The position numbers and the translations under genes are program-made. Shown here piece by piece: positions 51,870-56,041 of a DNA stretch of 64,000 nt. Every line of letters begins with the position of its first letter. Position 1 is the stretch's first letter. Below the pieces are notes generated by a model. It searched no databases, was not told the DNA's origin, and saw nothing but the letters and a program-made list of their open reading frames with translations. The stretch comes from Flavobacteriales bacterium (GTDB lineage Bacteria; Bacteroidota; Bacteroidia; Flavobacteriales_G; Salibacteraceae), in contig JAGQYO010000001.1 in the NCBI GenBank assembly GCA_020435995.1, forward strand, positions 124,001 through 188,000, written 5' to 3'.

Positions 51870-53393
51870 ATGAGAAGATACCTAAATCTTGGTTTACTGA
51901 TTCTAATGTTTTGCCCATCATATCTCTTTTCGCAGTTAGGAAAAGACATTACCGATATTACTTATAGGCGAAGCTCGCTTCACACAATGCTCATAGAGTC
52001 GGGTGCCTACCCAATGAAAGATACAGTTGAAAACGTTTTTTACGAAGCACCTTTTCCAGAAAAGTACAACAACCACACAGTTGGCCGCAAATCCTTCGAT
52101 CCGAGTAAATATGGTGGTACATTGGGAGTGGAAAATCCGGATTTTGATAAAAAAGCAGCAAAATCAAAGTCTGCAGGTAACCCCGAAGATCAAAAGGCAA
52201 TTGAAAATTATCTTGAGCAGGAGGCCATTGCGAGACAAATGATAGCCAAGTGGTTTAATCGCTCGCCAAATGGATCTTTTGATATGAATCTAATTGGCGA
52301 AAGAGGTTCGTACAACGCTTCAGAAATGGAGGCCAAAATTGCGGAAGGCTCTGTCCGGGGGGTAGCATCTTTAGCTGATGCAGGTGAGGAATTGATCAAA
52401 AACACCTTTGTGGTGGTCACCAAACTAAATTTTGTAAAAAACGAGCCGTTTGCCAGAGCAATACGTGATGCGGGGCTAATTTCGGCTAATCAAATCGAAA
52501 ATGAGCTTGGAAGGGACTTAGCCATTGCTGCGGCTGAAACTTTTTATGCACTTACAAAAGATGGATATACTGCACTCGCCGTTGCATACTTGTACCAATT
52601 AGAGTGGGATGAGGAAACTGCAGCTATATTTTACCAAGACTATTGGGTGAGTGAAGCTAATTGGGACAAGAACCGGGTTGCTGCTTTTGATACGTCTAAA
52701 ATTTTTAAAATGAAATTTGTTGGTGCGGAGAAGGCATCAAGTATAGTAGCTATAAGTGCAGGTAAATCCATGAACGAAATCATTCATTTGGCCACTATTA
52801 GAAACATTGACAACATGTATGTGAAACTGCAAAAGAAATACGATGTCTTTAAAACAAAAACCCCTCTTTATTCTGTTGACCCCCTTGCAGCTAAAATTGG
52901 ATTAAAAGAGGGTGTTAAAGGAGGTGATAAATTTGAAGTACTGGAACAAACCATCGACTCAAAAACAGGTAAAACTAAGTATGTGAGTAAGGGTAAAATC
53001 ACAGTGGACCGTAAGAAAATATGGGATAACCGATATAATGCTGGGGAAGAAATTAGTGTTATCGAAGTAGAAGACGAACCCGCAGAATCAGATTCTGCAG
53101 TAGTAGCTTCAAACGCCATGCTCGCTGGTGGCGATGATGATGACGTTGTGATTGAACCAGAGCCAAACGCTGCTATGGCTGGAGGCGATGATGATGATGT
53201 GGTTGTACTTGGCACAGATAGTGCTAATGCGGGCGGCAACAATAACAATGAAGTTGTGAGTAATGGAAAAGAAACAGCCGTTATTAAGGAAGAAACACAA
53301 GATGAGGTTGTTCAGCCTAAGCTCAACATGACCTATTTTAAAGGAGGAAGTAAAAAATATTATCCAGGAATGCTCATCAGACAAGTAAAATAA
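51870..53393 (+). CDS. Exported protein, first gene of a four-gene conserved unit, unknown function
   Basis: A 507-residue protein with signal peptide (LLILMFCPSYLFSQ). The mature part has FVVVTKLNFVKNEPFARAIR, AVAYLYQLEWDEETAAIFYQ, IRNIDNMYVKLQKKYDVFKT, KTPLYSVDPLAAKIGLKEGV and KGGDKFEVLEQTIDSKTGKT, then an acidic low-complexity stretch (about residues 415-465: GGDDDDVV twice, then GGNNNNEVV), and an end FKGGSKKYYPGMLIRQVK. I remember the segments around KLQ.YDVFKTKTPLY and KYYPGMLIRQ from unnamed Bacteroidota proteins, so the family is widespread but uncharacterised. The last motif with its positive charges could lie at the outer membrane. Three more exported genes follow with gaps of 36, 27 and 16 bases. 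Confidence 0.82.
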   Translation: MRRYLNLGLLILMFCPSYLFSQLGKDITDITYRRSSLHTMLIESGAYPMKDTVENVFYEAPFPEKYNNHTVGRKSFDPSKYGGTLGVENPDFDKKAAKSKSAGNPEDQKAIENYLEQEAIARQMIAKWFNRSPNGSFDMNLIGERGSYNASEMEAKIAEGSVRGVASLADAGEELIKNTFVVVTKLNFVKNEPFARAIRDAGLISANQIENELGRDLAIAAAETFYALTKDGYTALAVAYLYQLEWDEETAAIFYQDYWVSEANWDKNRVAAFDTSKIFKMKFVGAEKASSIVAISAGKSMNEIIHLATIRNIDNMYVKLQKKYDVFKTKTPLYSVDPLAAKIGLKEGVKGGDKFEVLEQTIDSKTGKTKYVSKGKITVDRKKIWDNRYNAGEEISVIEVEDEPAESDSAVVASNAMLAGGDDDDVVIEPEPNAAMAGGDDDDVVVLGTDSANAGGNNNNEVVSNGKETAVIKEETQDEVVQPKLNMTYFKGGSKKYYPGMLIRQVK

Positions 53394-53429
53394 AGATTAG
53401 AATAACCCCAAAAATTAAAATGTAGAATT

Positions 53430-53954
53430 ATGAAAATGTTAATGAAATCCTTGGCAATCTCCATGATTGCCATCACTTGCTTCACTATTGACGCTAGTGC
53501 GCAAAAAAAGAAAAAGGCAGATAAGGCAATGCATGTGTTTAGGTATGAAATCGAATGTATGGGTACTGGCGTTCAAGGCACGTATTTGATTAAGGTATGG
53601 TCATACTCTAAAAAGGCAACCATAGCTCAAGAATGGTCAAAGAAGGATGCTATCCATGGTGTAATTTTTAAGGGATTTGCAGGAGCTAACGGATGCCAAT
53701 CGCAAAAGCCCCTATCTAGAAACCCTGATTTAATGCAAGAACAAGAGGCATTTTTTGATGAGTTTTTTGATACAAAAACCGGTGGTTATCGTCAGTTCGT
53801 AAACTTAACGACAGATGGGGTGCCCTCTGCAGGCGATGTTCAGAAAGTAGGTAAAGAATATAAAGTAGGGCTTGTTGTGTCAGTGAATAAGGACGCACTT
53901 CGCAAATACTTAGAGGATAAGGGCATTATAAAGGGTCTGGCTTCTGGGTTTTAA
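53430..53954 (+). CDS. Small exported protein, second gene of the four-gene unit
   Basis: A 174-residue protein: signal peptide (SLAISMIAITCFTIDASAQ), a lysine-rich KKKKADK, then FRYEIECMGTGVQGTYLIKV, WSYSKKATIAQEWSKKDAIH and GVIFKGFAGANGCQSQKPL, ending GLVVSVNKDALRKYLEDKGI followed by IKGLASGF. I recall closely similar small proteins in Bacteroidales next to DUF6175 genes but know no function. Two cysteines in the mature part could pair. Lies 36 bases after the first gene and 27 before the DUF6175 gene. Confidence 0.8.
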   Translation: MKMLMKSLAISMIAITCFTIDASAQKKKKADKAMHVFRYEIECMGTGVQGTYLIKVWSYSKKATIAQEWSKKDAIHGVIFKGFAGANGCQSQKPLSRNPDLMQEQEAFFDEFFDTKTGGYRQFVNLTTDGVPSAGDVQKVGKEYKVGLVVSVNKDALRKYLEDKGIIKGLASGF

Positions 53955-53981
53955 TCAAATTGAATTATTAAATATATAGAC

Positions 53982-54938
53982 ATGAAAAAAATAGTATTAC
54001 TCCTAGCAGTTGGATTTTTATCAATAAATGTGGCTAACGCTCAAGCCAAAAAACCAACCTTAATGGTGGTTCCAAGTGATGCGTGGTGTAGCATGAATGA
54101 CTACATGCTCGAGTTTGATGACGAGGGATCTAAAGTGAGGATTCCAGATTACAAAAAGGCATTTCAAAGCGATCCAGACCTTCTGTTGGTCATAAGTAAA
54201 ATTAATGGACTAATGGCAGATCGCGGATTCCCCCTAAAAAACATGGAATCAGTTTTAAAAACCCTGGAATCAAATAGCGCTGAAGATGCCATGATGACTT
54301 CTAAAGATGGTGATGAGTCTAGCGAAAGCCCCGTTGATAAATTAAAAAAGGTGGCTAAAGCTGATATCATTATCCAAATTACTTGGAAAGTGAATGTAAC
54401 AGGGCCTAAAAAATCAATTACTTTCAACATGCAAGGTTTAGATTCATATACTGATAAGCAAGTAGCTACTGCGGCGGGAACTGGCGCTCCTTCGTTTTCG
54501 GCAGAGGTTCCAGTATTGTTAGAGGAGGCAGTGTTATCTCACATGGATAACTTCACCAATTCTCTTCAGAATCACTTTGATGACATGTTTGCCAACGGGC
54601 GTGAAGTGATTATAAGAATTAAAAAATGGGATTCGTGGGACGAAGATTTGGAATCAGAATTTGATGGTGAAGAATTAGGTGTTATTATTGAAAACTGGAT
54701 GGCTGCAAATACGGTAAGCGGTAGGTTTAGTACGACTGATGCCACCGAAAACATGATGTTGTTTGAGCAGGTTAGAATTCCTCTTTTTGAAGAGCGTAAT
54801 GGAAACCAGATTGCTATGGACACGCGTCGTTATGCCAGACAATTAAGTAAGTTTTTAAAAGATGAACCCTACAATATTCCAAATAAATTAACCACTAAGG
54901 GCCTAGGACGGGCAACTATATATTTAGGTGGTAAGTAA
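53982..54938 (+). CDS. DUF6175 family exported protein
   Basis: A 318-residue protein with signal peptide (LLLAVGFLSINVANAQ). Distinct stretches are TLMVVPSDAWCSMNDYMLEF, ISKINGLMADRGFPLKNMES, DKLKKVAKADIIIQITWKVN, GPKKSITFNMQGLDSYTDKQ, PSFSAEVPVLLEEAVLSHMD, FANGREVIIRIKKWDSWDED and TTDATENMMLFEQVRIPL. This agrees with my memory of DUF6175 proteins of Bacteroidota. The KADIIIQITWKV region and the long helical part suggest an alpha/beta periplasmic domain, perhaps of the type that builds surface or envelope complexes. Function unknown; third of four consecutive exported genes. Confidence 0.85.
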   Translation: MKKIVLLLAVGFLSINVANAQAKKPTLMVVPSDAWCSMNDYMLEFDDEGSKVRIPDYKKAFQSDPDLLLVISKINGLMADRGFPLKNMESVLKTLESNSAEDAMMTSKDGDESSESPVDKLKKVAKADIIIQITWKVNVTGPKKSITFNMQGLDSYTDKQVATAAGTGAPSFSAEVPVLLEEAVLSHMDNFTNSLQNHFDDMFANGREVIIRIKKWDSWDEDLESEFDGEELGVIIENWMAANTVSGRFSTTDATENMMLFEQVRIPLFEERNGNQIAMDTRRYARQLSKFLKDEPYNIPNKLTTKGLGRATIYLGGK

Positions 54939-54954
54939 AAAAGAAATTTAGAAT

Positions 54955-55941
54955 ATGAAAAATATAATTTCAGCTTTTGGGCTGCTTTTTCTGATGACCC
55001 TCTTGGGGTCAGAATTAAACGCTCAAAACAATGCAAGCAAAACAGATGACTTGGGTCGTATTGTACTCAACGGATATGTTTCTCCTTCGCTGGGAATTCC
55101 AGAAAGTGCAAGAAATCTATTAACAAATAGGCTCAATCAGGCCGCTACAAAAAGCGGAATGGGAGGAAGCGCGGTTAACCCTAGGTTTATAATTACGGCA
55201 AATGTGAGTGTTATTTCAAAGGATATTACACCCACTGCTCCTCCTATGACGGCTTTAACTTTAGAAGTTACGGTTTATGTAGGGGATGGAATTGAAGGAA
55301 CTAAGTTTTCAAGTGCTTCATTGAATGTTAAAGGCGTTGGAACAAATGAATCTAAGGCTTACACAGAAGCCTTGAAGCAATTGAAGTCTACAAACTCTCA
55401 AATACAAAGGTGTATTATGGAGGGGAAGACTAAAATTATTGAGTACTATAACAGCAACTGTGATTTTATACTCAAAAGCGCTCAAGCTTTAGAAGCGCAA
55501 AATGAACACGAAAAAGCCATACTTACACTCACCAGTGTACCTGAAGTTTGTAAGGAATGTCACGAGAAGTGTTTAAGCGCCATCGGGCCCGTGTTTCAAA
55601 AGCAAATTGATAAATCTTGTATGACATATTTAAATGAAGCAAGAAGTATTTGGTCGGCAAATCAGAACAGAGAAGCTGCCGAAAAAGCAGCAGCCCAATT
55701 GGGACAAATTGATCCTCAGGCAGCTTGCTTCGAAGAAGCGTCGAACTATGCAAATGAAATTGCGGTAGGAATAAAAGAAGTTGAAGGAAAGGAGTGGGAG
55801 TTTGCCATGAAACAGCAGCAAGATGAGGTTGATACGCAAAAAGCAACAATTAATGCGGCCAAAGAAGTAGCCGTAAAGTTTGCCAATGAGAAGCCCGCAG
55901 AAGTTAAAACTGAGGAGTACAAAACTGATGAATGGTGGTAA
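54955..55941 (+). CDS. Exported cysteine-rich protein, fourth gene of the four-gene unit
   Basis: A 328-residue protein with signal peptide (LLFLMTLLGSELNAQ). The first half has RIVLNGYVSPSLGIPESARN, RFIITANVSVISKDITPTAP and LTLEVTVYVGDGIEG, resembling beta-rich segments of periplasmic proteins. The second half is helical with TPR-like repeats and about seven cysteines: NCDFILKSAQALEAQNEHEK, EVCKECHEKCLSAIG, KSCMTYLNEARSIW, AACFEEASNYANEIA. The ending is charged (EEYKTDEWW). It closes the unit, followed by a hairpin terminator. No known family name. Confidence 0.8.
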   Translation: MKNIISAFGLLFLMTLLGSELNAQNNASKTDDLGRIVLNGYVSPSLGIPESARNLLTNRLNQAATKSGMGGSAVNPRFIITANVSVISKDITPTAPPMTALTLEVTVYVGDGIEGTKFSSASLNVKGVGTNESKAYTEALKQLKSTNSQIQRCIMEGKTKIIEYYNSNCDFILKSAQALEAQNEHEKAILTLTSVPEVCKECHEKCLSAIGPVFQKQIDKSCMTYLNEARSIWSANQNREAAEKAAAQLGQIDPQAACFEEASNYANEIAVGIKEVEGKEWEFAMKQQQDEVDTQKATINAAKEVAVKFANEKPAEVKTEEYKTDEWW

Positions 55942-55961
55942 TTCTTAAGGACTAAAACAGA

Positions 55962-55990
55962 GAAGGGCTGCGATGATTCGCGGCCTTTTT
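55962..55990 (+). terminator. Terminator of the DUF6175 gene unit
   Basis: AAGGGCTGCG and CGCGGCCTT form a stem of about nine base pairs with one bulged G and loop ATGATT, followed by T6. Confidence 0.75.
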
Positions 55991-56041
55991 TATGCCTTAT
56001 AATGAAGGTAAAATGCGTCTCAAATATTCCATCTCAGCGTT

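Follow-up and report, generated by a model that had tools for sequence, protein, structure and literature searches.

Do four consecutive genes for exported proteins, only one of which falls in a named family, belong together, and if so, what might their products build? The genes, here called A to D (Table 1), lie in what we call the window, the whole stretch of 64,000 nucleotides analysed (G000:C110:124001-188000), which belongs to a 3.76 Mb genome that is 99% complete. All four are on one strand with intergenic gaps of 36, 27 and 16 bases, the product of each begins, as judged by eye, with a signal peptide (a basic start, a hydrophobic core, then SQ or A-x-A-Q), and D is followed by a hairpin and T-run (-21.3 kcal/mol, z = -7.0) that is absent from the list given by a simple terminator scan. 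The ORF calls, signal peptides and hairpin fold agree with the arrangement that an initial annotation of this DNA had described, four closely spaced genes with a terminator at their end. Since the genes upstream are homogentisate and hydroxyphenylpyruvate dioxygenase-like and those downstream encode an M17 aminopeptidase and PdxA, the operon sits amid unrelated metabolic genes. The same annotation assigned the third gene to DUF6175, and C indeed matches PF19672 over its full length (positions 1-293/293; 422.7 bits, cut-off 23, E=8.7e-127); no Pfam or NCBIfam family matched A, B or D. DUF6175 is so far a family of unknown function and is not mentioned in the papers of the literature searched; it can now be assigned to a defined operon, with partners and a likely fold class, and the resulting hypothesis is testable in cultured marine strains. 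One laboratory strain with A-B-C-D is Psychroserpens mesophilus JCM 13413 (L028).

Table 1. Positions of the four genes and associated features in the window.
Feature	Position	Strand	Description	Basis
Gene A	51870-53393	+	507 aa; exported FlgT-like protein; alpha/beta domain, then small C-terminal beta domain; ends GMLIRQVK	ORF call, Foldseek
Acidic/low-complexity insert in A	53049-53324	+	Residues ~394-485; AGGDDDDVV-type repeats; relatives lack the insert; predicted disordered	
Gene B	53430-53954	+	174 aa; small exported protein; often duplicated elsewhere; fused to C in some lineages	
Gene C	53982-54938	+	318 aa; exported; DUF6175 (PF19672); model resembles CsgG/PelC/DUF330/GNA1162/FlgT	
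Gene D	54955-55941	+	328 aa; exported; C-terminal half contains cysteines; weak TPR-like profile matches in relatives	
Intrinsic terminator 3' of D	~55960-55991	+		Hairpin and T-run, folding energy

Conservation of gene order and co-occurrence

The initial annotation took the four genes to form a conserved unit and called beforehand for a gene-neighbourhood search over Bacteroidota. A genome-wide scan with C gave 33 loci, in which A, B, C and D were then located by iterated profiles. Far from being rarely adjacent, the homologues stand in the order A-B(-B)-C-D on the same strand in 30 of the 33, with gaps within the operon that are mostly 0-30 bases; of the exceptions, L022 begins and L023 stops inside the operon at contig ends, and L048 has no recognisable A. 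No non-operon family recurs in the flanks of more than 7 of 41 loci, and neighbourhoods of +/-10 kb contain no conserved gene for an energiser, cargo, polymerase, inner-membrane partner or peptidoglycan synthase. The records carry the labels Flavobacteriales, Saprospiraceae/Chitinophagales, Prevotella, Rikenellaceae and other Bacteroidales; for MAGs such labels are not all reliable.

Co-occurrence was measured in 395 genomes spread over the Bacteroidota phylum, among which C is carried by 19, B by 15, D by 8 and a strong A by 5. C is present in every genome that has one of the others (15/15 for B, 8/8 for D and 5/5 for strong A), with Fisher p values of ~7e-24, ~6e-12 and 1.5e-7, respectively, which the kinship of the genomes makes optimistic. 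In addition, B and C are a single gene in some deep lineages outside the class, with the B part N-terminal and the C part C-terminal. Since order and strand are kept amid unconserved flanks, B and D never occur without C, and B and C are found fused, we regard A-B-C-D, on these sequence comparisons, as firmly established to be a genuine conserved unit, also across distant lineages.

Some copies of the operon are rearranged or extended. Its order is altered to C-D...A-B in genome G351. In another rearranged copy, C is immediately preceded by what is left of the end of A (L058:8700-9011), and a complete A-B pair comes after D. At two loci the complete operon is immediately followed by a second A-B-B set (L030:7814-10632 and L034:12013-14827), in which A is extended by a barrel-like part. 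In a tree of C the labelled groups interleave and many forks are weak, a pattern that fits some horizontal transfer without proving it; the operon gave no plasmid match and no viral-contig match. Two records with unexpected labels are a faecal "Bacteriophage sp." sequence with A-B-B-C-D (L113; MT836698.1), which is probably a mislabelled bacterial contig, and a 4.6 kb contig labelled Cellvibrionales that carries the operon (L026), likely through a binning or naming error.

Predicted folds of A and C and variants of A

The AlphaFold model of C (pLDDT 87.1) is matched by Foldseek, in descending order, to GNA1162, DUF330, the LPHT ring, CsgG and FlgT, and lower down to PelC, with probabilities mostly of 0.9-1.0, and, weakly, to LpoB. 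These matches, like those of A below, are remote, with ~10-14% identity and whole-chain TM-scores by query length of only 0.16-0.31. CsgG, TolB-N and DUF330 had earlier been grouped in a single Pfam clan (PMC3173608), and the model of C indicates that it likely belongs with this CsgG/PelC/DUF330/FlgT (TolB-N/CsgG) fold class.

The model of A has a pLDDT of 74.6, with residues 396-481 below 50. The acidic repeat stretch, which had been put forward as a trait of the unit, is indeed present here but is peculiar to this genome's copy, as it is missing from all 28 aligned relatives. The top two Foldseek matches of A, and the only ones with E<0.001, are a chain of the LPHT ring (E=1.5e-4, probability 0.98) and FlgT (3w1e; E=2.3e-4, probability 0.96); to judge from its length, the former chain would also be FlgT. 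The TM-score of A against FlgT and the LPHT ring is only ~0.2. In predicted fold class A is likely nearest to FlgT of the Vibrio H-ring, as a remote match. No FlgT family of Pfam or NCBIfam matched A, B, C or D, searches of PDB sequences with the A-D profiles returned chance matches only, and among PADLOC anti-phage models there was only a chance-level match of C (E=0.023). We take the predicted structural matches of A and C as evidence for fold class and not for homologous function. CsgG-fold domains also occur in proteins that are not known to form rings, such as LpoB and the TolB N-domain.

A occurs in two lengths. The short form ends ~77-90 residues past a GxKEG motif, and apart from its insert this genome's A is of that form; the long form runs 238-277 residues past the motif and, like outer-membrane barrels, often ends in an aromatic residue. 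Eleven proteins of the scanned loci have the long C-terminal extension; weak hits to OMP_b-brl come from two A1 members (E=0.023), and one to OMP_b-brl_2, at E=4.7e-4 and below the family cut-off, from a distant A relative. At L056:10311-12671 and L033:6721-8928, A has an extra N-terminal part of ~320-400 residues that gave no meaningful match and no known family.

In three variant operons (G154, G158 and G318) the A slot is held by a CsgG/LpoB-like protein, the G158 copy scoring under the cut-offs. Only in variant operons L059 and L061 does the A-slot protein match the CsgG profile, and that of L061 scores 34.3 bits for CsgG (cut-off 20.8) and 37.4 bits for LpoB (cut-off 22.3). In hhalign comparisons the CsgG-type A-slot protein gave weak values both against A (33%) and against D (38%).

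Sequence features of B and D

The odd motifs that the initial annotation ascribed to other Bacteroidota are conserved in relatives (the GMLIRQ end of A, KVWSYSKK of B and NxxCDFI of D). Its description of a cysteine-rich helical repeat region in the last gene holds in part, since D has 7 cysteines here and relatives give weak TPR-like matches, but the cysteines are not universal, most of them being missing in several relatives. A regular-expression search finds a lipobox in 11 B-type proteins of the scanned loci, for the most part second copies or fused or variant forms.

Neither B nor D matches LPP20 (PF02169) above the cut-off; the D proteins of the fused-type operons L063, L111 and L112 do score above it. 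Since comparison of B with LPP20 proteins by hhalign was negative (14%), and LPP20-type proteins aligned with D over their own C-terminal part only (68%), we claim no fold for B or D. Profile comparison, which covered A and B against D in part, found no domain shared among the four families, and A to D resemble one another only in signal peptides and short chance matches. A fifth gene found in the Bacteroidales version of the operon (f4) looks LPP20-like (hhalign 78%); it was rejected as a general partner, since of 41 genomes tested this one alone has it.

A candidate outer-membrane ring or scaffold

Three known systems invite comparison. The Vibrio H-ring, built from FlgT, FlgO and FlgP, assists the passage of the flagellum through the outer membrane (PMC7990780, PMC7693769). 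The model of A is closest to FlgT, that of C has FlgT and the LPHT ring among its matches, and CsgG/LpoB-type and LPP20-type partners occur in variant operons; however, gene set and order differ, and FlhA is missing here and in 17 of the 19 carriers of C. Curli CsgG shares its type of fold with the model of C, and the replacement protein in the A slot is a CsgG-family member, whereas A to D of this genome match no CsgG profile and lack a lipobox, and CsgF is absent here and in 18 of the 19 carriers. In PelBC, a 12-mer ring of the lipoprotein PelC sits on the beta-barrel PelB (PMC12141448). The operon shares with it a PelC-like C and the encoding of a CsgG-fold protein alongside a barrel or something barrel-like (A in many relatives); in place of a separate 16-strand PelB, however, the operon has its barrel-like part as an extension at the C-terminus of A, and no recurring neighbour is a candidate Pel gene.

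The absence of FlhA and CsgF from nearly all carriers argues that neither a flagellar nor a curli function applies. Since the operon and its variants unite look-alikes of H-ring and Pel/curli parts, and neither known function applies, we infer an outer-membrane-associated ring or scaffold. Specifically, the modelled folds suggest that the A-B-C-D products may form a non-flagellar, non-curli periplasmic ring or scaffold of FlgT/CsgG/PelC-type domains, a reading whose chances we consider evenly balanced. C would form or join the ring, and A, which in many relatives has a barrel-like extension of its own, would use its FlgT-like module to dock the ring to the outer membrane. B, which the fused forms link physically to C and which has putatively lipidated copies in relatives, would decorate or tether the ring, D would cap or scaffold it on the periplasmic side, and the whole would serve a non-flagellar, non-curli surface structure or export. 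Oligomerisation, contact among A to D, an outer-membrane location in this host, separate roles for B and D and any export role are all things that we infer; this genome's A to D have no lipobox and no barrel, so that membrane attachment is not evident.

The initial annotation had proposed a periplasmic or outer-membrane assembly without naming its kind. That remains the best reading, with direct interaction of A to D a putative part of it; the evidence for a FlgT/CsgG/PelC-class fold is new here, and no paper in the literature searched joins three of FlgT, LPP20, CsgG and Bacteroidetes/TolB. More tentatively, the operon might represent a patchy but widespread non-flagellar outer-membrane machine of Bacteroidota in which FlgT, CsgG and LPP20 blocks have been recombined, with a cargo or appendage of its own. 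If the ring reading is true, bacteria that are for the most part without flagella have reused parts of the H-ring and of curli/Pel export in a different outer-membrane machine.

A more specific version of the same ring is a curli-like or exopolysaccharide-like exporter for a fibre or polymer encoded elsewhere. The matches of C to the CsgG and PelC rings, and the existence of A forms with a barrel-like extension beside the precedent of PelC on its barrel, are consistent with it, yet the scarcity of CsgF and the lack of any conserved cargo or polymerase gene within +/-10 kb make it rather unlikely. Equally improbable is a unit that regulates the synthesis of envelope or peptidoglycan from the periplasm, as an LpoB/TolB-type activator that bridges the outer membrane to cell-wall enzymes without any ring or pore. 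The A-slot replacement scores as high for LpoB as for CsgG, the model of C weakly matches an LpoB structure, and A to D here have neither barrel nor lipobox; however, the best structural matches of A are to FlgT and not LpoB, C ranks ring formers above LpoB, barrel-like A forms exist, and no peptidoglycan synthase gene is conserved nearby. Finally, the lack of similarity among A to D might suggest four unrelated exported proteins that lie together by chance or local synteny, an explanation with almost no remaining likelihood, as it is refuted by the gene order kept across distant orders with unconserved flanks, the strict co-occurrence and the B-C fusion.

Two further loci of the host genome contain related genes. 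A distant D paralogue (E=2.7e-17) adjoins an f4 homologue at L106:5042-7283 (G000:C32), possibly as a second, reduced locus, and a CsgG-family and an LPP20-family gene lie side by side at L107:5504-8256 (G000:C43).
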